A stretch of DNA of 64,000 nucleotides from Nocardioides sp. cx-173 (GTDB taxonomy: Bacteria; Actinomycetota; Actinomycetes; Propionibacteriales; Nocardioidaceae). The notes beneath the pieces were generated by a model, which was not told where the DNA came from, made no database searches, and worked only from the letters and a program-made list of their open reading frames with translations. The position numbers were made by a program, and so were the translations under genes. The DNA lies in assembly GCF_021117365.1 (NCBI RefSeq), contig NZ_CP088262.1, positions 2,623,001 to 2,687,000 of the forward strand, written 5' to 3'. Below, one piece after another: positions 6,584 through 61,653 of this stretch (positions within the stretch are counted from its first letter, which is position 1; each line of letters starts with the position of its first letter).

Positions 6584-6871
6584 ATGCCTGCACCACACCC
6601 GCCCGAGTTCCGTCGCCGGGCGATGGACCTGGCCCGTCAGCCAGGAGCGTCGGTCGCTCAGGTCGCGAAGGACCTGGGGATCAGCGAGTCCGGTCTACGC
6701 CGTTGGATGAGCCAGGACGACGTCGACACCGGCCGCAAGGAAGGGCTGTCGACCAGCGAGCGCGAAGAGCTGGTCAGGCTGCGCCGGGAGAACCGTCGTC
6801 AGCAGATGGAGATCGAGATTCTTAAACGCGCTTCGGCCTATTTCGCACAGGAGAACGTGCTCCCAAAATAG
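6584..6871 (+). CDS. IS3-family transposase OrfA
   Basis: A 95-residue helix-turn-helix protein that binds the element ends. The N-terminal HTH (SVAQVAKDLGISESGLRRWM, about residues 23-42) is followed by a leucine-rich coiled coil (LVRLRRENRRQQMEIEILKR), both typical of IS3 OrfA. The start ATG has AGGAAGGAG upstream. The frame ends at TAG 6869-6871 right after a candidate -1 slippery sequence, so the main product is probably the OrfAB fusion, with OrfA alone acting as regulator. Confidence 0.92.
   Translation: MPAPHPPEFRRRAMDLARQPGASVAQVAKDLGISESGLRRWMSQDDVDTGRKEGLSTSEREELVRLRRENRRQQMEIEILKRASAYFAQENVLPK
6862..6868 (+). other. Candidate programmed -1 frameshift site of the IS element
   Basis: The heptamer C CCA AAA in the OrfA frame, two codons before the TAG stop, permits slippage to CCC AAA. 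Reading then continues in the -1 frame as IGFRLVQEL into OrfB with no stop. IS3 elements commonly use such sites to make OrfAB. Confidence 0.6.
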
Positions 6872-6918
6872 GGTTCCGGCTGGTCCAGGAGCTCGCCGCG
6901 GACGGCTTCGACGTCGCG

Positions 6919-7770
6919 GTGGCCTGCCGGGTCTTGAAGGTCTCACGCTCCGGCTACTACGAGTGGCGCGACCGGCCACCCTCAGCCCGCGACCTCGAGG
7001 ATGCCTATCTGGCGAACACGATCTACGACATCCACGCCATGTCACGGCGCTCCTACGGTGCCCCACGGGTGCACGCCGAGCTCCGGCTCGGGATGGGGGT
7101 CCGGGTCGGCCGGAAACGGGTCGCGCGGCTGCTGCGGATGACCGGCCGGCGCGCGATCCGCCATCGCCACAAGCGTCGGCACTGCCCGGCTGAGGCGGTC
7201 CACCAGGACCTCGTGCAACGAAAGTTCACCGCTTCTGGCCCGGACCTGTTGTGGTGCACCGACATCACCGAGCACCCCACCAGGGGCGGGAAGGTCTACT
7301 GCGCCGCGGTCCTCGACGTGTTCACCCGACAGGTCGTGGGCTGGTCGATCGCGGACCACATGCGCTCAGAACTGGTCGTCGACGCACTGCAGATGGCGAC
7401 CTGGCGTCGCCGCCCGCAGGCCGGCACGGTCGTCCATTCCGACCGTGGCAGCCAGTACACGTCCTGGGTCTTCGGCCACCGGCTCCGCGACGCCGGCCTG
7501 CTCGGATCCATGGGCCGAGTCGCCTCGTCGGTGGACAACTCGATGATCGAGTCGTTCTGGTCGACCATGCAACGCGAGCTCCTCGACACCCGGACCTGGG
7601 ACACCCCAGAGCAGCTCGGCTCGGCGATCTTCGAGTGGATCGAAGCTTGGTACAACCCCCGCCGCCGGCACACCGCGATCGGAATGCTCAGCCCGATCGA
7701 CTACGAGCACCACTGGCAGCAGCAACAAGCCTCCGCCGCTCTTCACACCGCCGCCCACGGCGCGGCATGA
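6919..7770 (+). CDS. IS3-family transposase OrfB (integrase catalytic core)
   Basis: DDE recombinase catalysing transposition. The start given is the first GTG in frame, but the frame is open back to the slippery site at 6862, and the functional protein is probably the OrfAB fusion of about 395 residues. HTH_21-like region near the N-terminus (MSRRSYGAPRVHAELR), then the rve core with Asp in WCTDITE, Asp in VHSDRGSQY and Glu in NSMIESFWSTMQREL, plus the C-terminal YNPRRRHTAIG motif. All catalytic residues are intact, so the element may be active. Confidence 0.92.
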   Translation: MACRVLKVSRSGYYEWRDRPPSARDLEDAYLANTIYDIHAMSRRSYGAPRVHAELRLGMGVRVGRKRVARLLRMTGRRAIRHRHKRRHCPAEAVHQDLVQRKFTASGPDLLWCTDITEHPTRGGKVYCAAVLDVFTRQVVGWSIADHMRSELVVDALQMATWRRRPQAGTVVHSDRGSQYTSWVFGHRLRDAGLLGSMGRVASSVDNSMIESFWSTMQRELLDTRTWDTPEQLGSAIFEWIEAWYNPRRRHTAIGMLSPIDYEHHWQQQQASAALHTAAHGAA

Positions 7771-7897: not shown

Positions 7898-9121
7898 ATG
7901 GGGAGGCACGACGCGGCCGGGCCGAGCGCCGAGTTCCAGGTCGGTCATCATGTCTCCCCACCGGGCCTAGCCCGCATCTTCGATGAGGAGGTGCTGCGAG
8001 ACGAGGCCATCTCGTTCGTCGAGCACTTCTACGACGAGAACAAGTCCCCCATCCCGCTGCGTGACCGACTCGCGGCGGTCGAACAACAGATTGCCGAGAC
8101 CGGTACCTATACCCACACCAAGTCGGAGCTCGTATGGGGAGCGCGCGTCGCCTGGCGCAACAGTGCGCGATGCATCGGGCGCCTGTACTGGAACGGCCTT
8201 CGGGTGCGCGACTTGCGCGCGGTCCAGACGGTGGACGCGATGGCGTACCACTGCGTCGAGCACATCAGAGTCAGCCTGAACCGCGGGAACATCCGCCCTG
8301 TCATGAGCGTGTTCGCGCCCGAGACGCCGGCAAGCCCGGGAATGCGCCTGCTCAACCCGCAGTTGCTGGGATACGCGGGATACGACCGCGGCGGTGGGGA
8401 TCGGCTGGGGGATCGCAACAACCGCGATGTGACCATGACCGCTCTGCGGTCCGGGTGGTCGGCTCCGCGCCCTCCGTCGCCGTTCGACGTGCTGCCAATG
8501 CTGATCCGCGACTTCGACGGGCACGTGCACGTGCGACGGCTCCCGCCAGAGGCGACGCCGGAGGTCCGACTGCGGCACCCCGATCTCGACTGGCTGGAGG
8601 GGCTGGGACTGCGCTGGTTCGCGCTCCCCGTCGTCTCGGACATGGCGCTCTACATCGGGGGCATCAACTATCCCGCTGTTCCGTTCAGCGGCTGGTTCAT
8701 GAGCTCCGAGATTGCGGTCCGAGATCTTGCCGACCGCGACCGCTACGACGTGCTCCCCTTTCTGGCCAGACGGATGGGCCTGGACCCGGGAAACCCCACC
8801 GACTTCGCCGTCGACCGGGCCGCTCTGGAGCTGTTGCGAGCGGTGCACTTCTCGTTCGACGCCGAGAAGGTGCGTATCACCGAACACCACACGGAGTCGT
8901 CGCGCTTTCTCCTCCACCGCGACCGAGAACAGGCCGCAGGTCGTTCCTGTCCGGCCGACTGGAGCTGGATCGTCCCTCCGGTCTCCTCCGCATTGACCCC
9001 CGTCTTCCATCAGTACTACGACTTCCTACCAGCCAAGGGCCCGCAGCTTTATCACCCCTATACGACGACCTATCGGGCGCACCGCGACCGCGACGAAGGA
9101 CGGCGACGGGCCGAGCGCTGA
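7898..9121 (+). CDS. nos: Bacterial nitric oxide synthase, oxygenase domain
   Basis: Oxidises L-arginine to citrulline and NO, using electrons from a separate reductase since no flavin domain is attached. At 407 residues it matches bacterial NOS oxygenases. Key residues are present: heme-thiolate Cys92 in WRNSARCIGRLYW, the arginine-binding Glu271 in GWFMSSEIAVRD, and the pterin-site motif CPADWSWIVPP (residues 351-361). The N-terminus has no Zn-binding Cys pair, as usual in bacteria. The ATG at 7898 lacks a strong ribosome site. It lies between an IS element and, convergently, the rSAM/PKS operon. NO can serve stress defence or nitration of natural products; which applies here is unknown. 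Confidence 0.95.
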   Translation: MGRHDAAGPSAEFQVGHHVSPPGLARIFDEEVLRDEAISFVEHFYDENKSPIPLRDRLAAVEQQIAETGTYTHTKSELVWGARVAWRNSARCIGRLYWNGLRVRDLRAVQTVDAMAYHCVEHIRVSLNRGNIRPVMSVFAPETPASPGMRLLNPQLLGYAGYDRGGGDRLGDRNNRDVTMTALRSGWSAPRPPSPFDVLPMLIRDFDGHVHVRRLPPEATPEVRLRHPDLDWLEGLGLRWFALPVVSDMALYIGGINYPAVPFSGWFMSSEIAVRDLADRDRYDVLPFLARRMGLDPGNPTDFAVDRAALELLRAVHFSFDAEKVRITEHHTESSRFLLHRDREQAAGRSCPADWSWIVPPVSSALTPVFHQYYDFLPAKGPQLYHPYTTTYRAHRDRDEGRRRAER

Positions 9122-9157: not shown

Positions 9158-9562
9158 TCAGTACGCCGCCGCGCGGCATATTGCTCGCGACATCTCGGAG
9201 GGCTGAACACCATCCACTGCCCAGTGCCACGCCCAGTTGAGCACCCCGTCGTTGAAGGAGGCATGGATCTCCATCGCATAGGAGCCTGGAGTCGTGCACA
9301 CGAAGATCCCGTCGGCGCTCATCTCGAACACGCTGACGCCGGGTGATTCCGAGAACGCGACGAAGAGCCCGTCAGGTGCCACCACGGTGTGCTCACGGTG
9401 CTGGAGGCCCTCGCGTTCGGACGTCGCCTCGTAGTCGATCGTAAGGCAACCCCCTGGTGCTTGACGCACCTCGATGCGGGCCGAGCACTCGCCGCTCTCC
9501 AGCCCTGTCACCAACCCTCTGTAGAGGCCGGGTGTCGTCCCAAGCAGCCCGTTCGAGCTCAC
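9158..9562 (-). CDS. Hypothetical protein, last gene of rSAM/PKS operon
   Basis: A 134-residue protein I do not recognise. It looks like a soluble beta-rich domain with alternating hydrophobic strands (CLTIDYEATS, GLFVAFSESPGVSVFEM, GIFVCTTPGSY, LNWAWHWAVDG), somewhat reminiscent of small lipocalin-like or DUF1579-like folds. There is no signal peptide or membrane segment. The GTG start at 9562 overlaps the stop of the upstream M16-like gene (GTGA), so it is translationally coupled and belongs to the operon. A tailoring, binding or immunity role is possible but not shown. Confidence 0.75.
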   Translation of the reverse strand: MSSNGLLGTTPGLYRGLVTGLESGECSARIEVRQAPGGCLTIDYEATSEREGLQHREHTVVAPDGLFVAFSESPGVSVFEMSADGIFVCTTPGSYAMEIHASFNDGVLNWAWHWAVDGVQPSEMSRAICRAAAY

Positions 9563-10728
9563 GTGCGCTCCATTCCACGAAGGCGGTCACTGTCTGGACT
9601 CAGACTCGCATGGTCCGGTGCAGCGAAGTCCAGGTTCACCGACTCGATCGACTCCGGCGCCGCCACGACGACGAGGTCCATCTCGGCGACGTCGAGGAAG
9701 GCTCGCCACATGTGGTGGGCGAGCTCGGGGTCGACCGCGCGCAGGGCTGAGAGGTCGTCTGCGTGCGGGGCGCCGACCAAGGCCCGGTCGACCAGACGTC
9801 GCATGGTTGCCTCGTGGTTCAGGCGGCTCATAGCGGAGGCGTTCTCGTACGCGCCGACGGCCTGCTCCCAGCCCCTGGCGTCCCTAGGAGCCGCATCGGC
9901 ACCCTCCAGTACGGCGCGTCGCAGCGCAGCCACGGCCGTCTCGACGGTTCCCGGGGAACAGGAGAAGGACACCGTCCACCGAGTGAACGGCGATAGGAGG
10001 ATACCGGCGTACGGCGCGTAGGCGAGTCCGGAGGCGCGCACCGCGGTGAATAGGCGCGATGAGGGCGTGGCACCCCAGAGGTGGGTGCAAACGCGGATGA
10101 TGGCGAGCTCCGGCTCTGTCCACGACGGGGCGAGACGGGTCAGCCGAACGGTGACCTGCCTCGCGCTGGCGACCGAGCGCGTGTGGACCCGGAACCCGCG
10201 TGGGCGGAGTCGCTGGACCGCGGCGGGTGGGGCGACCGGGGCCACCGGCCACGACCACCGGGCGGACATCTCGACCGGCGCGGTGACCAGGACGAACGGC
10301 TGGGGCACCGTCTCGATCCGACACCCGGGAGCCGCATCGAGTACCTGGCACGCCACGTAGTCGGCCAGTTCGTTAGGTCCCTCGACACCCGGCTCCGACT
10401 CTTCCTGTGTGGGAAGAGGTTTCTCCAGGTACAGGGTGAGCACTTCGACCACGTGCTGGACGTTGCCGACCTCGGTGGTCACCGAAAGCCCGTAGAACTG
10501 TGGGTGGGCATACACCCGAGTGTCGGCAACGATGGTCTGCCCGACGGTCGAAGCGAGCTCCTCGAGGTACCGACGAGCCGGCGTAGCGGCGGAGACGACT
10601 GCCGGTCCCCTCCTGTGTGGCACCACGACGTGCACGTCGGCAAGCAATGCCTCGGGAAGGCGCACGCCCCGCACAGCGACGCCGTCGAGCGCGGACATCG
10701 AGCGGCCACGATCGATTTGCCCCGTCAC
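9559..10728 (-). CDS. M16-like peptidase subunit, non-catalytic
   Basis: A 389-residue protein with the size and layout of an M16B (insulinase/pitrilysin-like) subunit but without the HxxEH zinc motif. The C-terminal half carries the M16 hallmark 'R' region (PSSRLFTAVRASGLAYAPYA, matching the usual SRLFxxLREExGLxY). It probably pairs with the catalytic M16 protein encoded directly upstream, as in PqqF/PqqG-type or mitochondrial processing peptidase heterodimers. GTG start at 10728 with GGAGGTGAG upstream, overlapping the partner's stop (10725). It suggests that the operon processes a peptide. Confidence 0.78.
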   Translation of the reverse strand: MTGQIDRGRSMSALDGVAVRGVRLPEALLADVHVVVPHRRGPAVVSAATPARRYLEELASTVGQTIVADTRVYAHPQFYGLSVTTEVGNVQHVVEVLTLYLEKPLPTQEESEPGVEGPNELADYVACQVLDAAPGCRIETVPQPFVLVTAPVEMSARWSWPVAPVAPPAAVQRLRPRGFRVHTRSVASARQVTVRLTRLAPSWTEPELAIIRVCTHLWGATPSSRLFTAVRASGLAYAPYAGILLSPFTRWTVSFSCSPGTVETAVAALRRAVLEGADAAPRDARGWEQAVGAYENASAMSRLNHEATMRRLVDRALVGAPHADDLSALRAVDPELAHHMWRAFLDVAEMDLVVVAAPESIESVNLDFAAPDHASLSPDSDRLRGMERT

Positions 10729-11966
10729 GGTCTCACCTCCACGAGCCCCGCCTCAGCCGTCGAGAGACGCTGGAGCGCAGCGCGAATGCCGTGCGGGGAG
10801 GCGTGCTCTAAGCGATCCCAGATCAGGTCGAGGCCGCTTGGGTCGCCGGTCAGCAGGGCTGCGCTGGCTTCGGTCATCGCGCGGCCGCCCCACCACTGCC
10901 ACGAGCGTGCGATGTCGAGCCGACCGCGTGCTACGAGACGGAGGAGCTCGCCGTCGTCGAGCGAGGCGACTTCGGCACAAAGTCCACTCAGCGTCTTGGC
11001 ACCCTCGCCCGCGGTGCCGTCGAGCTCGATAACCAGCACGTTGGGGTCGCGCACGGCCAGGCCGTCAGCGTTCATGAGCCCGGTGTAGGCGCGAGGAGTG
11101 AACCCGCGGGCGGATCTGCTACTCAAGAGCGCGTTCATCGCGCCGGCGAGTGCAACCTCCGAGACAAATTCCGCCGACGCGTACGGCGAGGTGAGGTAGC
11201 CGAATGCCACGGCGGGTCGTTGGATCAACGGATCAGGGTAGGAACCAGCAGAGGCGACCGGAGTTGCCATGTAGCGGCCAGGCTGGCGCACGAGAGGGGC
11301 TACCGGCAAGGGAATGTCGCGGAAGATGTCCCTGGCGAGGGCGAGCAAGTCGTTCGTACTCTTGTCACCTGCGACGTAGATGAGTGCGTTATCTGGGCGG
11401 TAGTAGCGGGCATGGAACTGCGCGGCCGTCTCCACATCGACGGCGTCGAGATCGTCGAAGGTGCCGTCGTCGTTATGCGCGTGCACCCAGTCACCGAAGC
11501 AGTGCTGTGCCAGTTGAGACCACGGGAACGACCCATAGGGCAGGTTCCCCATCCGGTCCGAGACCTCGTTGCGCACCACGTCGCGTTCGCGGTCGAGATG
11601 CGCCTGGTCGAGGCACGGTCCAACCATGCGGCTCCGCTCGAGGCGTAGCACTTGACGAAGCCTGCCCCGAGGTGTCGCATTCACGAAAACGGTGTGGTCC
11701 AGCCGGGTCATCGCGTTCGCCATCCCACCCAGCGCGGTGACCGCCTGGAGATGGGTCTCGCCATCCTTGCTCTGGTCGAACATTAGATGCTCGCAGAGAT
11801 GGGCGAGACCCCGTTGCCCCGGCTCCTCGTCGCGGATCCCGACCTCGTAGTCCACCACCACCACGTCGACGCTCGTCGACTCAACGCACCGGGCAACAAT
11901 GCGAATGCCGCTGTTGAGCACCTCGCCGGCGATCGATCCGCTGCGGACCTCGGCACTCCTGGTCAC
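10725..11966 (-). CDS. M16 family zinc peptidase (catalytic subunit)
   Basis: A 413-residue M16B metallopeptidase. The inverted zinc motif HLCEH is at residues 56-60 and the third ligand Glu134 is in RDVVRNEVSDR, with the typical ~74-residue spacing. The C-terminal domain has the SRSARGFTPRAYTG region. No signal peptide, so it acts in the cytoplasm. The GTG start at 11966 overlaps the MFS gene stop (GTGA), which excludes the longer frame running to 12584. With the next gene it forms a catalytic/non-catalytic pair, typical of RiPP leader-peptide processing (PqqF/G, AlbE/F), although no precursor peptide is visible here. Confidence 0.88.
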   Translation of the reverse strand: MTRSAEVRSGSIAGEVLNSGIRIVARCVESTSVDVVVVDYEVGIRDEEPGQRGLAHLCEHLMFDQSKDGETHLQAVTALGGMANAMTRLDHTVFVNATPRGRLRQVLRLERSRMVGPCLDQAHLDRERDVVRNEVSDRMGNLPYGSFPWSQLAQHCFGDWVHAHNDDGTFDDLDAVDVETAAQFHARYYRPDNALIYVAGDKSTNDLLALARDIFRDIPLPVAPLVRQPGRYMATPVASAGSYPDPLIQRPAVAFGYLTSPYASAEFVSEVALAGAMNALLSSRSARGFTPRAYTGLMNADGLAVRDPNVLVIELDGTAGEGAKTLSGLCAEVASLDDGELLRLVARGRLDIARSWQWWGGRAMTEASAALLTGDPSGLDLIWDRLEHASPHGIRAALQRLSTAEAGLVEVRP

Positions 11967-13231
11967 GGGAACATCGTCTCGACGCCTGCGGACTCCGCGG
12001 GGCTCCGACCGTGTCGGCGAAGTGCGCCCGCCATCGCGATCACCGCCACGAGGTTGGCCACGACTGCAATGGTGAGCGCAGTACGTGGTCCCGTGGCGAT
12101 TGCCAGGACTGCGCCGGCCACCGCCCCGATGGCGCGCATGCCGTACTGCGCAGCCCCGATAGCCGCCTCGAGGTACGCGTGTGCCCATGTGCTCACCGAC
12201 CGCTGGCGTAGGTCGATCGACGTGACCCGGCTGACCGAGCCCGCGACGTTGGCGACGAACTGCGCACCCGCCAAGGCGAGAAACCCCGCGAGCCCGGGCG
12301 CTGCGAGAGGCATTGCGGCCGATGCGGCCGCGCCAACGACGCTGGCGCCGATGAACACGCGCCCGACATGTGCGTCTCCGACCCAACGGCTGACCACCGC
12401 GCCGAGCAGGGCACCGCACCCAGCGACTGTGAAAACGGACCCCAGTGCGACCGCCTCGAGACCCAGGACACGGTTGGCGAAGACGATGAGGACGACGTAT
12501 CCAGCCGAAGCAGCGGTCGTCATCGCGGCCGTGCCAAGGATAATGATCGACGCGATGCGGCTCCGCCGGACTTCGGCCATGCACTCCCGCAAAGGGATCC
12601 GTTCGAGGGCTTGCGGAGCAACCCGCCCGATCGCGACCGCGAGTGACAATCGCTGCCGTAGCAGTCGGGCGCCACGCAGGACGAGGATGCCCGACAGCAG
12701 GAAGGTCAGGGCATCGACGGCGATGGCGCCCCGCGGATGCATCAACTCGACCAGTGCCCCGGCGAGCAGCGGCCCCAGCAGCATGGCAAGCGTCTGCGCG
12801 ACCTCGAAGCGGGCGTAAGTCCGGACGGCACGCTCGCCCAGAGCCCCGCTCAGAATCGGCTGCAAGGACCGGTACGCCGCACCGTCGCAGGCGGAGGCCG
12901 ACCCCGCCAACGCCGACGCGACGAGGACCGCCCAGAACGTGATCGCGCCGCTGGTAAGGGGCGCAGTCACCAGCAGGCCGAAGACACCGAAGCGGGCCAG
13001 GTCAGCAAGGACCATGGTGCGCACGATGCCCAGCCGCGCCACCACGCTCCCGGCGTGGAAGCCGAGCAGCAGGAACGGGAGGTACTCGGCTGCGTAGACG
13101 AAACCGATGGCACCATCGGAACCGGACTCGGCCAGAAGCAGGAAGGGCACGGCCAAGACCGACAGCTCGTTGCCGAGCTGACTGGCGAACCGGGCGGACC
13201 AGATGAGGTCCCCGCCTCGTCGCACGCTCAC
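11963..13231 (-). CDS. MFS transporter (putative product exporter)
   Basis: About 422 residues with roughly 12 hydrophobic segments, resembling the MFS_3/enterobactin-exporter (EntS-like) group. There is an N-terminal ARFASQLGNELSVLAVPFLLL start and the loop ERAVRTYARFEVAQTLAMLLGPLLAG typical of that group. It probably exports the product of the surrounding operon. GTG start at 13231 overlaps the stop of the 2OG oxygenase gene, and its stop overlaps the M16 start, so it is embedded within the operon. Confidence 0.87.
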   Translation of the reverse strand: MSVRRGGDLIWSARFASQLGNELSVLAVPFLLLAESGSDGAIGFVYAAEYLPFLLLGFHAGSVVARLGIVRTMVLADLARFGVFGLLVTAPLTSGAITFWAVLVASALAGSASACDGAAYRSLQPILSGALGERAVRTYARFEVAQTLAMLLGPLLAGALVELMHPRGAIAVDALTFLLSGILVLRGARLLRQRLSLAVAIGRVAPQALERIPLRECMAEVRRSRIASIIILGTAAMTTAASAGYVVLIVFANRVLGLEAVALGSVFTVAGCGALLGAVVSRWVGDAHVGRVFIGASVVGAAASAAMPLAAPGLAGFLALAGAQFVANVAGSVSRVTSIDLRQRSVSTWAHAYLEAAIGAAQYGMRAIGAVAGAVLAIATGPRTALTIAVVANLVAVIAMAGALRRHGRSPAESAGVETMFP

Positions 13232-13956
13232 GCCTGCGTCGTCTCCCGGTAGACGAGGTTGTAGGAGACAGCGATCCGACGCTGGTCGACTTCGTGCACG
13301 GGGACGCTGTGCTGGAGCCAGCCCGGGAACATGACCAGGCTTCCCTGGCGCACCGGGAGCTCGACGCCGATGCCTTCGTCGGCGAAAGTGACACCGGGGT
13401 TGAAGTAGTCGAGATTGCTGCGCGGATCGTGGACGACCACCGCCCTGCTCCCAGCCGGGAACGCGGCGTAGTAGATCGCAGCCACCGGCGTGTTGGGATG
13501 GAAGTGGCGCTCGTGGGCATCGGCACGGTCGTAGACGCTGGCCCATGAGCGTCCGACCGCGATCGACGGCCGAGGAGCTTCCCGCCGCGCCTCACGCTCG
13601 TTGAATGCGGCGCCGCGCAGTCCATGCGTCGCGTTCCAGGCTGACTGCAGGGTTTGCCCGAGACAGACCTCGACGTACTGCGTCGCCATGCCTAGGACCC
13701 AGGTCGTCAGCGCGGTGGCCGCTGGGTGGTCCCACGAGTCGAAGTCGTCGAAGGTCTCCGACTTGCCGACCACCTGCTGCGGGGTGTCATCGACGGCGCG
13801 GGACACTAGCTCGCCCAGCGCGGCGTCGAGCGTCTCGGCGAAGGGACACGGGACGATGATGACCGGGGTGGCGAAGAGTCGCAGGAGCTGCACGCTGTCC
13901 ACCGTTTCATCCGTCGCCGACGGCTGTCCGGTTGTCGTCGTCTCGTCAGTAGACAC
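13228..13956 (-). CDS. 2-oxoglutarate/Fe(II)-dependent oxygenase-like protein
   Basis: A 242-residue protein resembling the 2OG-Fe(II) oxygenase group of PF13759. Metal-site candidates are HFHPN (His151/His153) and His216 in WLQHSVPV, with the 2OG-binding Arg in RRIAVSYN (226/227), plus DPRSNLDYFNPG between them. Such enzymes hydroxylate or desaturate small molecules and peptides. GTG start at 13956 with GTGGAGG upstream; it overlaps the SDR gene by 11 bp. A tailoring step in the operon's pathway is likely; substrate unknown. Confidence 0.82.
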   Translation of the reverse strand: MSTDETTTTGQPSATDETVDSVQLLRLFATPVIIVPCPFAETLDAALGELVSRAVDDTPQQVVGKSETFDDFDSWDHPAATALTTWVLGMATQYVEVCLGQTLQSAWNATHGLRGAAFNEREARREAPRPSIAVGRSWASVYDRADAHERHFHPNTPVAAIYYAAFPAGSRAVVVHDPRSNLDYFNPGVTFADEGIGVELPVRQGSLVMFPGWLQHSVPVHEVDQRRIAVSYNLVYRETTQA

Positions 13957-14731
13957 TCAAACCTCCACAGATATTGATCGCCTGACCTGTGTACGCACCC
14001 GCGTTCGGCGCGGCGATGAAGCGGACCAGGTTCGCCACCTCGTCGACTTGCACGTATCGCCCGATCGGTATGCGGGCCAGCTGCCGACGCTTCACCTCCT
14101 CGATCTCAATGTGGTCCGCAGCGGCGTACCGCGCTCGCGATTGAGCGCTCAGCTCCGTATCGACGAAGCCAGGACACACCGCATTGACGGTGACCCCGCA
14201 TCCCGCGAACTCCCACGCGAGAGCCTTGGTCATGGCAATCACGCCTGCCTTCGACGCCGAGTACGCCGGGGCGAGGCGGACGCCCTGCTTGCCGCCGGTG
14301 GACGCGATGGTGATGATGCGTCCGAATCCGCGCTCCGCCATCCCTCCCCGCGCAAGGGCGTGCTGCGCCAGGAGGAAGGCGCCGTTGAGGTTCACGTCGA
14401 TGATCTCCTTCCACCGGGCGTACGGGAACTGGACCGTCGGCCCCCCGCCGCCGATGCCCGCACTGTTGACCAGTACGTCGATTCGGTGGTGGCGTTCGAC
14501 CACGCCGTCCACGAGCGCAGCCACCTCGTCCTCGACGGTCACATCCGCTGGTATGCCCTCCAGACCCAGGACGGGGTCCGCGTCTCGAAGGGCGCGGGCG
14601 ATGGAGGCGGGGTGCTTGCTCGAGATCACGACCGCGGCGCCTGCCCCCGCCAGTGCTGTCGCGCAAGCCAGGCCGATGCCGCGGCTGCCTCCCGCGACAA
14701 CGGCGACCAGGCCCTTGAGATCATCACTCAC
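13946..14731 (-). CDS. SDR family ketoreductase (FabG/ActIII-like)
   Basis: A 261-residue classical short-chain dehydrogenase: NAD(P)-binding GGSRGIG at residues 14-20, NSAG, catalytic Ser in TIASTGG, YSASK, and the C-terminal G-x-G region GAYTGQAINICGGLSVY. It resembles FabG and the C-9 ketoreductases of aromatic polyketide pathways, which fits the neighbouring ketosynthase and cyclase. GTG start at 14731 with GGAGG upstream overlaps the cyclase stop by 8 bp. The longer open frame to 14899 is rejected. Probably reduces a keto group of a polyketide intermediate (inferred). Confidence 0.9.
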   Translation of the reverse strand: MSDDLKGLVAVVAGGSRGIGLACATALAGAGAAVVISSKHPASIARALRDADPVLGLEGIPADVTVEDEVAALVDGVVERHHRIDVLVNSAGIGGGGPTVQFPYARWKEIIDVNLNGAFLLAQHALARGGMAERGFGRIITIASTGGKQGVRLAPAYSASKAGVIAMTKALAWEFAGCGVTVNAVCPGFVDTELSAQSRARYAAADHIEIEEVKRRQLARIPIGRYVQVDEVANLVRFIAAPNAGAYTGQAINICGGLSVY

Positions 14732-15206
14732 GACGCGCCTCCGCGAACCAGTCGCGCATCCCCGACAGGTCCCTGGTCGCGTTCGATCGGATCGCACGAG
14801 TGAAGAAGTCGGCGGCCCCGGCATTCGTGGCCACGAAGCGATGCCGCAGGGTGACCAGGGCGGTCCCCTCCGAGTCACCCGGCGTGAACTCCCAGGCACC
14901 GTTCATCCGGAGCAGGGGTGCCACCGGGTCTAGCCGAGCGAAGGTGACACTGAGCTTGCTGTCGTCCAGCCGTCTCGCCGACCTCCAGGTGTGCACGGCG
15001 TCGTTGGCCTCGGCGGTCAGCTCGATCTCCTCAATCGAGTCCGGTCCGCGAGGCACGACGACCGTTGCGTCGGTGACGGCCGGCATGAACTGCGGCCACA
15101 ACGCCAGGTCGCAGCACAAGGCGTATGCGGCCTCAGGCGTCGCGGCGACGACGATGGTGTGCTTCTCGCGGCCTCGGACCGCGTCCTGCGACTCAAGCTG
15201 CTTCAC
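14724..15206 (-). CDS. SRPBCC protein, aromatase/cyclase-like
   Basis: A 160-residue START/Bet v1-type protein (polyketide cyclase/dehydrase family). It begins with the family pattern HTIVVAATPEAAYALCCDLALWPQFMP, contains TWRSARRLD and ends with a long helix (FFTRAIRSNATRDLSGMRDWF). Single-domain members such as TcmN-type aromatase/cyclases guide folding of poly-beta-ketone chains. The GTG at 15206 is preceded by GGAGGA at suitable distance; the gene overlaps the KS-like gene by 14 bp. Cyclase function is inferred from the PKS context. Confidence 0.85.
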   Translation of the reverse strand: MKQLESQDAVRGREKHTIVVAATPEAAYALCCDLALWPQFMPAVTDATVVVPRGPDSIEEIELTAEANDAVHTWRSARRLDDSKLSVTFARLDPVAPLLRMNGAWEFTPGDSEGTALVTLRHRFVATNAGAADFFTRAIRSNATRDLSGMRDWFAEARRE

Positions 15207-16017
15207 GGGCACTTCCTCCGGACATAGGCACGAGCGCGTATCCGTCACCGAGTTCGATCGGGCAGGAATGAGGACTGTCGTCGAGAGCGCAGCCGAGGTG
15301 GCTGGCTCGCGCCAGCGGGTCGCCGGCACCATCGTGAAGCCCTCGCCACACGACTGACAGTGGGCTGCCCGTGTGGGCCACCGCCGCCTCGATCAGAACG
15401 GCGACCGCGCCCTCCGCCAGCACCGGCGGCTCGCCGATGTCGCGGCACGGTGACGAGGCCAGCATGCTGAACGACGACACGCGCGACTCGGCGACGACCA
15501 CGACGGCCCGGTCGACGGCACCGGCCTCGATCGCGTCCTGCGCCGCCCACCAAACCTGCCCGAGCCCCCCGGAGTATCCGGCCACGGACTTCGCCTCACC
15601 GAGGATGCCGTAACGGATCGTCACCTCACCCTGCGCGGCCGCGGGGAACCACGCGGTCGCCTGGTAGGGCTGCATGCTGCGGACCCCGCGCGTAACGAGC
15701 GTCTCGAGCTGCTCTTCTCCGTACGCCCACCCTGCGGACGAGTTGAGCACGAAGACTCCGAGCCGTTCCGGGTCCTCCGTCGGGAAGCTCCGCACCAACC
15801 GGGACACCACCGTCACGGCGAGCGCGCTGAACCGGTCGATACGTCGTCCCAATGTCCGCGGAACCTCCGCGTCGTACCGCGGATCGTCGGCGAAGGCCCG
15901 CACCGCGTGATCGACCCCGCAGTGCTTGCAACCGATCGGCACGACCTCGTCAGCACCCGGCAGTAGCGTGACGTGTCCCAGGACGGCGAGACCCCCGGCC
16001 GTCGGCGCGCCGCTCAT
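15193..16017 (-). CDS. Short ketosynthase-like partner lacking the active-site Cys
   Basis: A 274-residue protein related to the N-terminal half of ketosynthases. At the nucleophilic-elbow position it reads SVAGYSGGLG, so Tyr148 stands where the KS has GCTAG, and no later His motifs are present. It overlaps the KS gene by ATGA (16014-16017), exactly as chain-length factors pair with KS-alpha in type II PKS. It is much shorter than the ~400 residues of normal CLFs, so it is either a minimal CLF-like partner or a decayed KS. Contains CKHCGVDH near residue 30, an unusual Cys pair. Confidence 0.78.
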   Translation of the reverse strand: MSGAPTAGGLAVLGHVTLLPGADEVVPIGCKHCGVDHAVRAFADDPRYDAEVPRTLGRRIDRFSALAVTVVSRLVRSFPTEDPERLGVFVLNSSAGWAYGEEQLETLVTRGVRSMQPYQATAWFPAAAQGEVTIRYGILGEAKSVAGYSGGLGQVWWAAQDAIEAGAVDRAVVVVAESRVSSFSMLASSPCRDIGEPPVLAEGAVAVLIEAAVAHTGSPLSVVWRGLHDGAGDPLARASHLGCALDDSPHSCPIELGDGYALVPMSGGSAREAA

Positions 16018-17186
16018 GCTGCGCTCATCACGATGGCGGTGTGAATCCCGGAGAAGCCACTGCTCAGCTTGACGATTGTCCGCACCTGCCGCTGCTCGGC
16101 GCTTCCCAGGACGAGCCGCAGTGGCACCGTCGGGTCTGTCGTGTTAGCGATCGGCGGTGCGGCGGACTCCTGGAACATGGCACCGCACCCGACGATCTCA
16201 AGCAGGTTCGACGCACCGAGCGCGTGCCCGTTGACGCCCTTCTGGGCGGTGATGGCCACACCCGCCGATGCCTCCCCGCACACCGTCCTGATGGCGGCGG
16301 ACTCGCTGGCGTCGTTGAGCGGAGTCGACGTGCCGTGCGAGTCGATGACGTCGATCTCGGACGGCGACGCGCCGGCGTCCTTGAGGGCAGCGATCAGCGC
16401 ACGGGCGATGTCGGAACCGTCCTCTCGGAGCGCTGTCATGTGGAGCGCACTGGAGACCGACGCCCAGCCCCGGATCTCGAAGGCCCCATGTCCTCCGCGC
16501 CTTACGAGCGACTCCTCCGACTCCAGCACCACGCACGCAGCTCCTTCACCGAGGGCGAACCCATCGCGCCCGGCGTCGAACGGTCGCGACGCTGTTTCTG
16601 GGCTGCCGTGCCGTCTGGTCAAGGCGCCGATCTTGTCGAACGCCGCCACGACGATCGGCGAGATGGTCGCGTCCGATGCGCACACGACCGCGATGTCGTC
16701 CCGCCCGCTACGGACGGCACGGAAAGCGGAGCCCAACGCGTCGAGACCGGCTGTGCAGCCGGTCGACATGACGAGGCCGCGACCATCCGCACGAAGTTCG
16801 CGGCGAAGTCCGCGTTCGAGAGACTCGAAGCGCAGGTCCTCCGCCGACGGCGCCGTGCCGTCCCGGTAGACCCGCTCCAGCTCACAGGTGGCGCCGATCG
16901 CGGTGGCCGTCGTGATCGACGTCGTCGCGAGCTTCAAGGCAGACAGGCCGCTCTGTGCGACTGCCTCACGGGCGGCGAGGACGCCCATCGCCTCATAGCG
17001 AGGGACGTCGCCGGGGAGGTCCTCCCCTACGCGCGCGGCCACCGCTTGAAGTCCGTCAATGTGCTCGGGTGGGAGTGCCCGGACGAGCGACTTTCCCGCG
17101 AACTGCGCTTCCGAATAGGCTCGACAACCCACCCCTGCGGGGGAGACCGCGCCGAGGCCGGTAACGAAAACCCTGCGTCTTCTCAT
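16014..17186 (-). CDS. Beta-ketoacyl synthase (type II PKS KS-alpha)
   Basis: A 390-residue condensing enzyme with a complete triad: Cys144 in STGCTAG, His284 in DSHGTST and His321 in GVNGHALGAS. Begins RRRVFVTGLGAVSPAGVG, as FabF and aromatic-PKS KS-alpha proteins do. It should extend an acyl chain on an acyl carrier protein, but no ACP gene is visible in the operon. ATG start 27 bp after the upstream barrel-protein gene. Paired with the downstream Cys-less KS-like gene, it forms the core of a type II PKS-like complex. Confidence 0.93.
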   Translation of the reverse strand: MRRRRVFVTGLGAVSPAGVGCRAYSEAQFAGKSLVRALPPEHIDGLQAVAARVGEDLPGDVPRYEAMGVLAAREAVAQSGLSALKLATTSITTATAIGATCELERVYRDGTAPSAEDLRFESLERGLRRELRADGRGLVMSTGCTAGLDALGSAFRAVRSGRDDIAVVCASDATISPIVVAAFDKIGALTRRHGSPETASRPFDAGRDGFALGEGAACVVLESEESLVRRGGHGAFEIRGWASVSSALHMTALREDGSDIARALIAALKDAGASPSEIDVIDSHGTSTPLNDASESAAIRTVCGEASAGVAITAQKGVNGHALGASNLLEIVGCGAMFQESAAPPIANTTDPTVPLRLVLGSAEQRQVRTIVKLSSGFSGIHTAIVMSAA

Positions 17187-17213
17187 CCGGGCACCCCCGT
17201 CCGGGCCCGGGAG

Positions 17214-17654
17214 TCAGGACTCTCGGTCCGGGTCGAACGGACGGAGCTCGTTTCGAGCCGTCGCCGCACGCTCGACCTCGGCCATCGTCTCCATCTGGGT
17301 GATCAGCGCTGCCAGCTCCTCACGACCGGAGCTCCAGTTGTTCAATGGGATGACCTCACGGTCCTGAGCGGACATCCGCGCGTGCGCGACGTTGGTCCGG
17401 AAGTGTCGCTGCAGCTCCTCGTGGTCGTCGACAGCGACGATGGACGCCATCCCCGCATACGAGACAGCCTTGTGCAGCTGCGCGACGATGGCCTGTGAGT
17501 AGGCCTTCTCGGCGTACTCGATCGAGTCCATCGAGCGTCGCAGTGACTGAGCCTGCTCGCGATAGTCCGCTGCGTTGTCGAGGCCGCCCCAACGTTCGAG
17601 CACCAGGAACTGCTGCTTCGACTCGTCGGCCAGGCCTTCTTCGTTGATCAACAT
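17214..17654 (-). CDS. Barrel-fold enzyme paralogue B (muconolactone-isomerase-like)
   Basis: A 146-residue protein paralogous to the next gene upstream. Shared features are (V)L-ERWGG-D-ADYxxQAxxLRRxMDxIEYxExAY, then a strand-turn-strand with AVDDHEELQRHF and a final EVIPLNNW segment. The second half resembles dimeric alpha+beta barrel enzymes such as muconolactone isomerase, and in aromatic polyketide pathways such folds serve as cyclases or cofactor-free monooxygenases. ATG at 17654 with GAGGAG upstream. Catalytic role not determined. Confidence 0.75.
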   Translation of the reverse strand: MLINEEGLADESKQQFLVLERWGGLDNAADYREQAQSLRRSMDSIEYAEKAYSQAIVAQLHKAVSYAGMASIVAVDDHEELQRHFRTNVAHARMSAQDREVIPLNNWSSGREELAALITQMETMAEVERAATARNELRPFDPDRES

Positions 17655-17713
17655 GTTTCTCCTCGTGGTTGTTGACTGCCAGTGACGATCGATCGCCATT
17701 GGTTTGTGTTCCG

Positions 17714-18154
17714 TCAGTCGGTACGTCCCATCTCGAAGGGCCTCACCCGCCCCTCCGCGGCGTAGCGCTCTTCCTCGCGGGCCAGGTTCTCGACGTTCTC
17801 GATGAGCTTTCCGAAGGTCTCGCGGCCGTCGTCCCACTCCCCCATCGGGACCACCGTGCGGTCAGCAGGAGCCATCCGGGCGTTGGCGGGATTGGCCTTG
17901 ATGTAGTCACCGAGTTGCTCGTGCGAGTCCACGGCGAGCAGCACCGCCGTGCCGCCGTGTCCCGAGAGGTGGTGGGCGATGATCACTTGGCCCTTGCGAT
18001 AGGCGGCCTCGACGTACTCGATGGCATCCATGTAACGGCGCAGCGCTCGGGCCTGCTGGGCGTAGTCGGCTCGGGCGTCGATGCCGCCCCACTTCTCGAT
18101 GACCAGGTAGTGCAGCTTGCCGGGTGTCTTGGCCAATTCTCGGTTGTACAGCAC
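17714..18154 (-). CDS. Barrel-fold enzyme paralogue A (muconolactone-isomerase-like)
   Basis: A 146-residue protein with the same architecture as the downstream paralogue: YLVIEKWGGIDARADYAQQA, LRRYMDAIEYVEAAYRKGQV, then LLAVDSHEQLGDYIKANPANARM and TVVPMGEW. The domain resembles the ferredoxin-like barrel of muconolactone isomerase. GTG start at 18154, 9 bp after the rSAM stop, so tightly coupled. Two diverged tandem copies suggest a heteromeric barrel or two successive steps. Function unassigned. Confidence 0.75.
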   Translation of the reverse strand: MLYNRELAKTPGKLHYLVIEKWGGIDARADYAQQARALRRYMDAIEYVEAAYRKGQVIIAHHLSGHGGTAVLLAVDSHEQLGDYIKANPANARMAPADRTVVPMGEWDDGRETFGKLIENVENLAREEERYAAEGRVRPFEMGRTD

Positions 18155-18163
18155 AGTCTTCCC

Positions 18164-20188
18164 CTACTCGAAGTTGTCTGAGATGAGCAGTTCGCATCGG
18201 ACGTCGAGCGAACGTTGAAGGTGGCGGAACGGAGTACCGCGGATGTCCCGGAGCCAACCCCCGTAGTTGAACGAGGCGCTGGGGACGACTACCAGATCGG
18301 GTTTGCCCTCGCGGTCGATGTAGTCCTCGATCGACGAGACGATGTCGTCGACGGTGAACAAGTCACCGAGGACGATGTTGCCGCCGTAGTAACGGTTCTC
18401 GGGCACGAGGCTCTCAATCCGCGTCGGCTGCGCACGACACAGGAAGCTCCACGCTCGAAGCATCGCCTCGAAGTGTGGGCGGACGACCTGGGACGTCACG
18501 ACCACGACGTGATCGGCGTCAGCGTGGTTGATCATGCGGAAGAGGTGGCGCATAGCGGAGACCGTGATGCCGCTGGCCTCGAGGAACACGCCGAAACGGT
18601 CGTTCACCGGCGGGCCGTACAGGTAGTCCTCCGAAGCCGCCTCGTGCCCCAGCTCAATGGTCACCGGCCGCCCGCCCTCCCGACGAACGTCGAGCACGCA
18701 GACCGCACGCTCGTCGTCGCGGGCGGTGCCGAGCAGGGAGAGGCAGTGCGGTCGAGACATCACCGGCACGCCGTTGACCTGCTCGATGAGATCACCGACC
18801 GCGAGCCCGCCCTCGGCCGCTGGTGACATGGGGGAGACTCCCGCCACATAGGCGCCGTTGAGGTCGTCTGGGTGGAGCAGCGACTGCGTGAACATTCCGG
18901 GCTGGATGATCAGCGGGTGTTGGAGCCGAGGCCGCAATGGCGTGAGCTCTCGGACGGCGCTTGCCCAGTAGTCATCGGGATCGAACACCGGTGGGTTCGG
19001 GAACAGCCGGGTGTAGCCGCCGAGGATCACGTCGATGATGCGGACGTTGAGCTGGTCGACGAGCTCGATGGTCTTGACCAGCTCGCCGATCGGCACCTCT
19101 GGCCAGGCGACCAACGTGGCCGTGAACCGAAGCCCACGCTCGTGCAGCCGCCGTATTCCGTTGATCCCCAGCTCGGCGCGTCCTCCCATGACGCGCTGGC
19201 GCGCAGCGGGCGTCGAGGCGTTCACACTGACGGTCAGCTCGACCGGGTCGAGAGCCACCAACCGCTCGACCGTCGAGTCGTCGAGCGTGTAGCCGTTGGT
19301 CGTCAGCGAGATCAGGTCGTTGGGCGAGACGGCTCGCAAGGACTCGAGCACGTCGAGTGACCCCGGGTGCACGAGGATCTCTTCCAGGTCGTACGTCGGG
19401 GGAAGGAGTGTCTTGCCCTGGCCGTAGTACTGCAGGCGGACGTCTGCCTCGTGCCGCGACTTCTCGACGCTGAACGAGTTGAGCCGGATGGACGCGTCCT
19501 TCGGATTGCCGTGGACGTAGCAGAAGATGCAGCGGGCGTTGCAGTTTCGCGACAGGCTCGCGATCACCTCGTACGGATCGCCCTGGCTCGGACGCACCCA
19601 CTGATCGAGGTCGCGCAAGCCAAAGGCGGCGACCTTCCCGTCCTCTGTCTCCGCTCGCGCCACGCGGTTCAGTGCCTGGAAGGCCCGCTGGATGAACTGA
19701 ACCCTCGGCTCGGTCCGCACCAGCACCAGCGGGTCATAGAACTCGTCGTTTCCTTCCTGCCCGCCGCGCAGGTCGGCCTCGACCTTGTTGCTCACGCTCG
19801 TCGTGATCGAGACGTCCGGCTTGGGGTCGCGAATCGGCTTGAGATGAGGCTCCTTGTCGCTCATCTCATTGTGGAACAAGAAGCTCGCGACATCGACGCG
19901 CTGGCCGTCGCTGTCGAAGAGCTCAACGACGTCGAGCATGTTGCCGAGGAAACTCCGAAAGAGCGCCTCCATTTCGTTCTCAGGGTGCAGCGGCTGAGCG
20001 TCTGGGACGACGGGGAACCGGAAGAGCTGTCCGTCGTCGCTCTCGACTGCGACTGATGCGTCGGCCGCGTCCAGCCCTTCGACCGGATGGGACGAACAGT
20101 GCCCGCCCGCGCCGTCGTCCTGAAGATCGAGGAACCAACGGTGATTGGACAGCTGAGCGGACGCACGTGGTGGATCGTCGGTAGCCAC
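18164..20188 (-). CDS. Radical SAM protein with PDZ and DUF512-like domains
   Basis: About 674 residues and the first gene of the operon. Residues 1-190: unknown acidic N-terminal region. Radical SAM core from ~200 with the cluster motif CNARCIFC (Cys216, Cys220, Cys223), followed by SLTTNGYTLDD and TVSVNASTPAARQRVMGG. A PDZ-like domain at ~447-518 (AYVAGVSPMSPAAEGGLAVG). C-terminal ~150 residues resemble DUF512 (RYYGGNIVLGDLFTVDDI). In the familiar bacterial DUF512 proteins the PDZ comes before the SAM core; here it is inserted after it. I favour the GTG at 20188; frame extends to 20254. Substrate unknown; a peptide or protein-bound target is plausible because PDZ domains bind C-termini. Confidence 0.87.
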   Translation of the reverse strand: MATDDPPRASAQLSNHRWFLDLQDDGAGGHCSSHPVEGLDAADASVAVESDDGQLFRFPVVPDAQPLHPENEMEALFRSFLGNMLDVVELFDSDGQRVDVASFLFHNEMSDKEPHLKPIRDPKPDVSITTSVSNKVEADLRGGQEGNDEFYDPLVLVRTEPRVQFIQRAFQALNRVARAETEDGKVAAFGLRDLDQWVRPSQGDPYEVIASLSRNCNARCIFCYVHGNPKDASIRLNSFSVEKSRHEADVRLQYYGQGKTLLPPTYDLEEILVHPGSLDVLESLRAVSPNDLISLTTNGYTLDDSTVERLVALDPVELTVSVNASTPAARQRVMGGRAELGINGIRRLHERGLRFTATLVAWPEVPIGELVKTIELVDQLNVRIIDVILGGYTRLFPNPPVFDPDDYWASAVRELTPLRPRLQHPLIIQPGMFTQSLLHPDDLNGAYVAGVSPMSPAAEGGLAVGDLIEQVNGVPVMSRPHCLSLLGTARDDERAVCVLDVRREGGRPVTIELGHEAASEDYLYGPPVNDRFGVFLEASGITVSAMRHLFRMINHADADHVVVVTSQVVRPHFEAMLRAWSFLCRAQPTRIESLVPENRYYGGNIVLGDLFTVDDIVSSIEDYIDREGKPDLVVVPSASFNYGGWLRDIRGTPFRHLQRSLDVRCELLISDNFE

Positions 20189-20514
20189 GAGACTGAACCC
20201 CCAAACCGCGCTCCGAGTGTGCTGCGGACGCCTGTCAGACCCAACTCCGCACATTCGCGGCGGCGGGCTTGCAATCTGGAGTCGTCTTAACCCAGACTGC
20301 GCTGCTGCCGGCTAAGGGGGCGGTAGCTGTTTGGGAGGCTAGGTGGGATCAGAACGGGCGTCAAGGTATCGAGAACGTCCCGATTGACCTTCCTACATAC
20401 CCCTGCGTTCACCGGGCGGCCGGAACGACGAACCCGAGCCAGGTGTACGTGCGAGGCCGGTTACGGGTAGCCCGGCACCTTGAAGAGGTCCCGGTCGAGG
20501 GGCGCTAGCCGATG
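20189..20514. other. Upstream region of the rSAM/PKS operon
   Basis: About 326 bp that must hold the promoter of the twelve-gene minus-strand operon. I see no convincing -35/-10 pair, and no precursor-peptide gene with a ribosome site on either strand. A plus-strand frame at 20269-20508 lacks any support. Confidence 0.45.
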
Positions 20515-20748
20515 CTAGGAGCTGACTTCCACCATCGAGGATCGCGCGAGCACCCCGCGTCCCGCGGGGCGGAGCGTCGAGGCACCGACCTCGCCCCGAC
20601 GTCGAACGGTCAGCAGTCGCTCCACCGAGGTCTCGTCGACCACTCCCCTGGCCAGCGACCGCAGCTCACCGCGCGCGACCAGGTGCTGCACCTGCCGCCT
20701 CGAAACACCGAGCCGCTCAGCGGCCTCGGATGCGGCGAGCAATGACAT
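20515..20748 (-). CDS. Small HTH (excisionase/MerR-like) protein, possibly truncated
   Basis: A 77-residue protein. The N-terminal ~45 residues form an excisionase-type winged HTH (LAASEAAERLGVSRRQVQHL, then ARGELRSLARGVVDETSVERLL). The rest is Arg/Gly-rich with no visible fold, so it may be the stump of a longer regulator. ATG at 20748 is chosen; a TTG at 20757 is possible but lies inside a 26-bp palindrome just upstream, which is probably its operator. No partner gene is apparent: the rSAM operon starts 326 bp downstream on the same strand. Confidence 0.6.
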   Translation of the reverse strand: MSLLAASEAAERLGVSRRQVQHLVARGELRSLARGVVDETSVERLLTVRRRGEVGASTLRPAGRGVLARSSMVEVSS

Positions 20749-20752
20749 GACA

Positions 20753-20778
20753 GACAAGTTCGCTTAAGCGAAGTTGTC
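20753..20778. promoter_or_regulatory. 26-bp palindromic operator at small HTH gene
   Basis: An inverted repeat matching at 12 of 13 pairs, centred on CGCTTAAGCG (20761-20770), with outer arms GACAA and TTGTC. It ends five bases before the ATG on the minus strand, so a bound protein would block transcription or a near-leaderless start. Probably autoregulated by the HTH protein. Confidence 0.7.
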
Positions 20779-20838
20779 CAGACGTCGCCGACCTCGAAAG
20801 AGGCCTGCCACCGCAAGACCCGGGAAGGAAAGTCCGAG

Positions 20839-21294
20839 TCAGGCGGTGGTGACGTTCTCCCCGTCGACGGTGACCCTCGTCTCGGGCAGCGGTGCGTTCG
20901 CCGGTCCGGACTGTGGTGAGCCGTCGGAGAGGGAGAACCTGCTGTGGTGGCAGGCACAGTCGATGGTCTCGGTCACCTTCGTCACCTCGCAGCCCTGGTG
21001 GGTGCACGTGGAGCTGAACGCCTTAAACGTCCCCTCCTCGGGCTGGGTCACGACCAGACCGTCGTCGACCAGGATGATGCCGCCGCCGACCGGCACTTCG
21101 GCGGTGGTGGTGAGCACGGTGCCGGCCCCGGGCGCCTGGACGCCACTGTCGCCGCCGTCGTCGGAGCCGCACGCGGCCAGCAGCGGGAGGCCGACGCCGA
21201 GCGCTGCGGCGCCTCCCAGCACGGTGCGGCGGGGTACCCCGGGGGCGGGATCGGACGCGGGTGTCGCTCTGCCCGGCGCTGCTTCGACTGCCAT
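20839..21294 (-). CDS. Rieske [2Fe-2S] lipoprotein with Tat-type signal
   Basis: A 151-residue electron-transfer protein. Twin-arginine signal PRRTVLGG (residues 21-28) runs into the lipobox LAAC at Cys42, so it is exported folded and anchored outside. The Rieske box is complete: CTHQGC (Cys97 and His99 ligands, Cys102 disulfide) and CACHHS (Cys113 and His116 ligands, Cys115 disulfide). The disulfide type suggests a relatively high potential. It shares a 76-bp leader with the copper monooxygenase lipoprotein gene, and a two-component system lies between them, suggesting a common stimulus and possibly electron delivery. Confidence 0.93.
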   Translation of the reverse strand: MAVEAAPGRATPASDPAPGVPRRTVLGGAAALGVGLPLLAACGSDDGGDSGVQAPGAGTVLTTTAEVPVGGGIILVDDGLVVTQPEEGTFKAFSSTCTHQGCEVTKVTETIDCACHHSRFSLSDGSPQSGPANAPLPETRVTVDGENVTTA

Positions 21295-61522: not shown

Positions 61523-61554
61523 CGCTGAACGCTCCTGACGGTCGTACGCAGATA

Positions 61555-61570
61555 GTGGAAACGGTTCCAC
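61555..61570. promoter_or_regulatory. LacI-type operator 1
   Basis: GTGGAA-ACGG-TTCCAC: palindromic arms of six bases around a central CG, the standard LacI-family half-site pattern (TGGAAACG). Lies 32 bp upstream of the binding-protein start, at the expected promoter position. Confidence 0.85.
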
Positions 61571-61653
61571 TCCGGTTGCCACGAAACTATGAGGGACGTC
61601 ACATCCGACTGTCAATAGCCCCACCGGGACGGGAGAGTCCCGCGGGTGAGATC

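Follow-up and report, generated by a model that had tools for sequence, protein, structure and literature searches.

A rare, probably imported operon of Nocardioides sp. cx-173 with a type II polyketide synthase core, a predicted cobalamin radical SAM enzyme and an M16 peptidase pair

A type II polyketide synthase (PKS) and a radical S-adenosylmethionine (SAM) enzyme occur together in the coelulatin cluster, where the radical SAM methylase is HemN-like and acts on the polyketide (PMC9714029). There are about 6000 DUF512 radical SAM enzymes, with substrates still to be determined (PMC11659888; PMC13331322). Heteromeric M16 proteases are described as removing leaders in some ribosomally synthesized and post-translationally modified peptides (RiPPs) (PMC10885120). 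We analyzed a 64,000-nucleotide stretch of the genome of Nocardioides sp. cx-173 (contig NZ_CP088262.1, positions 2,623,001 to 2,687,000, hereafter the window), in which a minus-strand operon of twelve open reading frames (ORFs), called from 20188 to 9158, brings type II PKS genes together with a radical SAM gene of the DUF512 kind and two M16 genes. Combined-term searches of the open-access literature returned nothing on such a combination beyond coelulatin (PMC9714029).

The best reading, to which we give a probability of roughly 0.55, is that of an imported, very rare natural-product operon with a type II PKS core. It probably makes a novel natural product and is best judged a new variant of the type II PKS pathway with a likely B12-radical methylase. 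As the initial annotation had stated, twelve genes lie on one strand and mostly overlap (Table 1). With the chosen starts, overlaps of 4-14 bp are found at 8 of the 11 junctions: ketosynthase (KS)/chain length factor (CLF)-like partner (4 bp), partner/cyclase (14 bp), cyclase/short-chain dehydrogenase-reductase (SDR) (8 bp), SDR/2-oxoglutarate (2OG)-Fe(II) oxygenase (11 bp), and, at 4 bp each, 2OG/major facilitator superfamily (MFS) transporter, MFS/M16a, M16a/M16b and M16b/U. The remaining junctions have gaps of 9 bp (radical SAM/b1), 14 bp (b1/b2) and 27 bp (b2/KS). The start at 20188 is supported by a 92% identical radical SAM protein (P0001) that begins at the identical point. Family or motif matches back the earlier assignments from the KS and its Cys-less partner through to the catalytic and non-catalytic M16 proteins. 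The Pfam E-values were 2e-9 for Polyketide_cyc2 (cyclase), 4e-53 for adh_short_C2 (SDR), 6e-18 for 2OG-FeII_Oxy_5 and 2e-14 for MFS_1; the cyclase matches PF10604 and PF03364 and the SDR matches PF13561, their activities being putative. The SDR was scanned from 14677, and the MFS protein from an upstream start, with its domain inside the called gene.

In the pathway we propose, the KS and its short partner would build a polyketide on the host fatty-acid acyl carrier protein (ACP), the SDR would reduce it, and the SRPBCC protein would fold or aromatise it. The DUF512/Mmp10-type cobalamin radical SAM enzyme would then methylate an unactivated position, the 2OG-Fe enzyme would oxidise the product, and the MFS protein would export it. 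Proteins b1 and b2 may assist some pathway step. The least certain step concerns a putative M16 heterodimer, which could trim a pathway-linked peptide or serve self-protection. A C-methylated, oxidised polyketide is a moderately likely product.

The KS matches both ketoacyl-synt models of Pfam (N-terminal PF00109, 6e-23; C-terminal PF02801, 2e-23) and keeps the Cys and both His residues in the motifs STGC at 141, DSHGT at 282 and NGH at 319. In PDB it is matched best by the actinorhodin KS (1tqy_A, 209 bits) and the KS of 6smo (207 bits), the latter presumably the Photorhabdus anthraquinone synthase AntDE; of the NCBIfam models fabF fits it best, though below cut-off. The partner, which has no Pfam match, reads TAWFPAAAQGE at the site of the KS Cys in an alignment of 18, is predicted to form a heterodimer with the KS, and falls in a broad KS-like family (95 homologues listed). 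Its best PDB profile match is 6smo_C (1.1e-36). The pair resembles, by its top PDB matches, the minimal synthase of aromatic type II PKSs. Unlike the actinorhodin and 6smo synthases, however, the partner has only 274 residues (390 for the KS; 371 and 415 aa for the counterparts in those two synthases), and the operon has no ACP gene. Eight homologues of the partner (P0039, P0042, P0049, P0058, P0064, P0067, P0068 and P0077) carry an SRPBCC domain in the same protein, and this fusion suggests that the KS-like partner and the SRPBCC cyclase work together. Among plasmids, the partner matched 20 records at 33-38% identity, none of them covering 80%.

Relatives of the partner were found at 57 loci in 84,980 genomes, and 55 of these also hold a KS relative (flanks of up to 10 kb were taken, less where contigs ended). 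Six loci (L008, L009, L020, L024, L037 and L058) match KS, partner, cyclase and SDR together. The nearest cassettes are those of Herbihabitans rhizosphaerae (L008), in which these four genes follow the order of the window, and of three Pseudonocardiales metagenome-assembled genomes (MAGs; L005-L007), which hold KS, partner and SDR, with a partial SDR match in L007. Over the matched stretches and in shared order, identities are 47-48% for the KS, 47-53% for the partner and 49-55% for the SDR, the Herbihabitans SDR being 55% identical. A KS tree, built without 9 of the 55 KS-matched loci (ORF >520 aa), groups the window KS with L005-L008 at 100/100, on long branches. The surroundings differ. L005, which was domain-scanned (L006, L007, L009, L020 and L037 were read as ORF translations only), continues with SnoaL-like, amidohydrolase, metallo-beta-lactamase-fold, FAA hydrolase, ACP, carboxyltransferase and O-methyltransferase genes, unlike the window operon. 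At 1e-6, none of the 57 loci, L005-L008 included, matched the radical SAM, b1, b2, 2OG, MFS, M16a, M16b, U or nitric oxide (NO) synthase proteins. A sweep with the partner profile at 1e-20 found 9 of 394 class-sample genomes, our own included; in the other eight loci (3.4-3.6 kb each) the partner is 30-35% identical, and neither the radical SAM protein nor an M16 protein found a match. Five of the loci (L009, L020, L024, L037, L058) are gammaproteobacterial (Pseudoalteromonas luteoviolacea, Zooshikella and a MAG), with cyclase-SDR-KS-partner matches. In L009, L020 and L037 the partner runs to 391-415 aa, close to full length, and ORF translations suggest a downstream ACP and a ligase in L009 and L037.

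The radical SAM and PKS parts likely act as one system, since on three other contigs the short partner is linked with the radical SAM or b1 family. Relatives of the radical SAM protein and of the partner come from contigs of the same source and equal size in two cases (P0001 and P0011, lgn contigs, both 10295 bp; P0005 and P0098, ena contigs, both 19198 bp), and a b1 relative and a partner relative in a third (P0008 and P0012, jgi contigs, both 6786 bp). This co-occurrence is indirect, being drawn from contig size and source in protein searches, and it covers 2 of the 6 radical SAM matches and 1 of the 3 non-self b1 matches. Unpaired are four radical SAM matches, among them that of Amycolatopsis sp. 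WGS_07 (P0002), and two b1 matches; no radical SAM match shares a contig size with any b1 match. In two of the linked pairs, identity to the window proteins is no more than 40-65%, which argues that the association predates this single strain.

The 674-residue protein encoded by the leading gene matches Radical_SAM (7e-14) and PDZ_6 (2e-9) in Pfam. The third domain of the radical SAM-PDZ-DUF512 architecture first proposed for it remains under the Pfam cut-off (0.0032, 17.2 bits against 25), but it is recovered in the predicted fold: the model matches csDUF512 (9cg1), pfDUF512 (9cg2) and Mmp10, class 2 cobalamin radical SAM enzymes, in both the radical SAM core and a C-terminal cobalamin-type domain. 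In all eight aligned family members the CxxxCxxC core (C216/C220/C223) is invariant, as is T565, which by its position is taken as the Thr to the dimethylbenzimidazole (DMB) tail. The position that would lie under the cobalt is Leu in 6 of the 8 and Met in 2; L610 is the residue aligned with Leu286 of pfDUF512, provided that chain numbering begins at 0. From the model, the protein is likely of the DUF512/Mmp10 cobalamin kind and a radical methylase. It differs from all three enzymes in a ~200-residue N-terminal extension and in its PKS operon setting, and from csDUF512 also in the place of the PDZ domain, here between the core and the cobalamin domain but N-terminal in csDUF512 (PMC11659888). 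With a DUF512 relative inside a defined biosynthetic operon, the substrate becomes testable. A Sinorhizobium locus (L062) might have been a further copy of the system, but this reading was rejected: the radical SAM gene alone matches convincingly, the next best being OG at 0.015 and SDR at 0.073. An 80-aa ORF of that locus (L062:17282-17524), which has no Pfam match, overlaps the Sinorhizobium radical SAM-PDZ gene, taken at its longest, by 1 base. It ends in TRV, which we take to resemble a PDZ ligand, and it is a candidate substrate.

The claim of a type II PKS core stands for the KS, the Cys-less partner, the cyclase and the SDR; it had passed over the lack of an ACP gene in the operon. In the whole genome (one contig, 99.7% complete), PF00550 has a single match (E<=0.001), which lies 94 kb beyond the end of the window. 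TIGR00517 marks the identical place with 70.2 bits (cut-off 70.45), and its one further match, of 12.5 bits, was taken as noise. Because a FabD-like gene adjoins it in the ORF translations, this lone ACP is probably of the fatty-acid type. One AcpS-type phosphopantetheinyl transferase was found in the genome. With no ACP gene in the operon and one in the genome, the KS pair must borrow that ACP or do without, and the PKS part would work like a type II PKS either way. For some type II PKS clusters without an ACP gene, borrowing and working without one are still to be decided between (PMC7949117). A genome with a single detectable ACP could answer the borrowing question cleanly.

The operon is probably very rare, and it looks imported because its GC content at third codon positions (GC3) lies below that of its flanks and its radical SAM gene is in no other genome of the genus. 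GC3 is 0.822 for the twelve genes (range 0.79-0.86) and 0.826 for the neighboring NO synthase gene, against 0.929 for 15 chosen flanking genes. Of the 215 genomes swept from the genus, our own was the one with the radical SAM gene, which the sweep found in none of the 214 others; the class sample (which overlaps the other sweep sets) gave 1 of 394, again our own. The gene was found in none of 341 genomes in the family of G408, taken as the family of Herbihabitans through a protein 86% identical to the Herbihabitans probe, and in none of 8 in the family of G057. Among relatives, 3 of 58 genomes matched at E<=0.001, namely our own and two partial matches of ~20 bits. Searches with the radical SAM alignment gave 13 pattern matches in the genome collection and 51 in viral contigs, none confirmed. 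Among 5.8 billion database proteins, 6 radical SAM relatives were listed, and 4 for b1 including its own cluster; these searches detect a relative only through short exact words in common, and the candidates scored numbered 39 for b1, 5981 for the partner and, for the radical SAM protein, the best 7993. One b1 relative (P0007) is 98% identical and sits on a contig of up to 409922 bp, which implies that a close relative of the strain may carry the operon. A transposase carrying integrase-core and HTH_21 domains (6919-7770, plus strand; 6584-7770 overall with a small ORF upstream), presumably of IS3 type, lies close to the border of the low-GC3 segment.

The two M16 proteins raise the question of whether a peptide is involved. 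M16a matches Peptidase_M16 (7.5e-13) and Peptidase_M16_C (9e-8) and has HLCEH (HxxEH) at residue 56; M16b matches Peptidase_M16_C (PF05193, 9e-9), has no HxxEH, and gave no match in PDB or among plasmids. One other PF00675 match lies ~1 Mb away in the genome. The two look complementary, and we infer a heterodimer that would be comparable to PttP1/PttP2, a heteromeric M16 leader protease whose two M16-type subunits are linked to a biosynthetic pathway (PMC10885120). The initial annotation went further, to a possible new hybrid class in which a peptide or protein is modified and a polyketide is attached or processed; in such a scheme the radical SAM and 2OG enzymes would modify a ribosomal peptide and the M16 pair would cut its leader. 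The likely unity of the radical SAM and PKS parts agrees with it, and a peptide part of the product is possible, yet we think the full scheme rather unlikely. Unlike in the PttP1/PttP2 system, no precursor peptide was identified upstream: of 16 ORFs of at least 20 aa overlapping 20150-20840, to which the short-ORF search was confined, none is convincing, one of 41 aa (20287-20412) having no visible ribosome site. No joining enzyme (acyltransferase or ligase) is among the operon Pfam matches, and the PDZ domain is the sole Pfam-recognised peptide-binding element. The co-occurrence expected of radical SAM, KS pair and M16 pair extends, on the three contigs above, to the radical SAM or b1 family with the partner; the M16 pair matched none of the 57 CLF loci. 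Should the M16 pair turn out to have a part in the pathway, this would mean a new peptide-polyketide link.

That no second M16-bearing locus was found among the loci examined would also fit two modules joined by chance through horizontal transfer, a PKS with radical tailoring and an M16 pair with U for an unrelated task. Cassette swapping is indeed evident, as the KS-partner core occurs beside quite different neighbors. The unbroken 4-base overlaps from 2OG through MFS, M16a and M16b to U (chosen starts) and the even GC3 of the twelve genes nevertheless make this quite improbable. As a long shot, an ACP-less pathway might work on a ribosomal peptide or small-protein scaffold, with the PDZ domain holding the scaffold C terminus, the KS pair working on acyl groups that are attached to the scaffold or meant for it, and the product being released by the M16 heterodimer. 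A short partner is also a feature of cispentacin biosynthesis, in which a KS (AmcF) and a cyclisation factor (AmcG), described as lacking parts of a CLF (PMC10698177), make a five-membered ring from 2-oxoglutarate before tailoring. The window KS aligns with the AmcF model over residues 6-388 at 157.6 bits, but this falls short of the 325-bit cut-off and is exceeded by the scores of fabF-type models; the operon Pfam matches include no ACP (AmcB) or adenylation (AmcH) counterpart, and the best PDB relative of the partner is 6smo_C, so a pathway of this type is very improbable. We prefer the imported type II PKS operon, in which the role of the M16 pair would be the least certain part.

Table 1. 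Coordinates (window positions) of the operon genes and of the convergent neighbor
Feature	Position	Strand	Basis
Radical SAM-PDZ-DUF512-like (cobalamin-binding) protein, 674 aa, long N-terminal extension	18164..20188	-	Pfam, model
b1, 146 aa	17714..18154	-	no Pfam match above cut-off; low-confidence model
b2, 161 aa with chosen start, b1 homologue	17214..17699	-	alignment
Ketosynthase, Cys-His-His motifs, 390 aa	16014..17186	-	Pfam, NCBIfam, PDB matches
Short Cys-less KS-like partner (CLF-like), 274 aa	15193..16017	-	homologues, alignment, PDB profile match
SRPBCC/Polyketide_cyc2 cyclase-like	14724..15206	-	Pfam; start picked by GGAGG
SDR (ketoreductase-like)	13946..14731	-	Pfam; start picked by GGAGG
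2OG-Fe(II) oxygenase (PF13759)	13228..13956	-	Pfam
MFS transporter	11963..13231	-	Pfam
M16a, M16 peptidase, catalytic (HLCEH)	10725..11966	-	Pfam, NCBIfam, motif
M16b, M16 peptidase-like, non-catalytic partner	9559..10728	-	PF05193 alone above cut-off; no HxxEH
U, 134 aa	9158..9562	-	no Pfam match above cut-off
Bacterial NO synthase oxygenase, convergent	7898..9121	+	PF02898 7.9e-124

The description of b1 and b2 as two barrel proteins had to be dropped. They are homologues (42% identical), with no Pfam match above cut-off and no sequence match in PDB below E 1.4; the model of b1 has a pLDDT (predicted local distance difference test) of 61.6 and gave no Foldseek match at E<=0.001, and b1 has no plasmid match. 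For U, likewise free of Pfam and plasmid matches, the best PDB match has E 0.027.

The NO synthase gene converges on the operon, with 36 bp between its end and that of U. NO synthase is found in 7 of the 58 relatives searched, our own included, and 2 of the 7, again with our own, are of the genus; it scores 414 bits here and about 494-505 bits in the six others. Some clusters use NO as a precursor for nitro compounds (PMC10831120); no P450 is among the operon Pfam matches. The gene is possibly part of the imported segment, and its membership in the pathway is a guess.

Rfam had nothing at gathering score between positions 4000 and 24000, and promoter-like (1 vs 0.6 in shuffles) and terminator-like sites (4 vs 4.0) show no excess over chance. 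Upstream of the operon, an 80-aa ORF (20515-20757, minus strand) has a weak HTH_17 match just under cut-off and may be a regulator or an excisionase-like remnant. The only tRNA found in the window is a tRNA-Arg (cct) at 61499-61585 on the plus strand.

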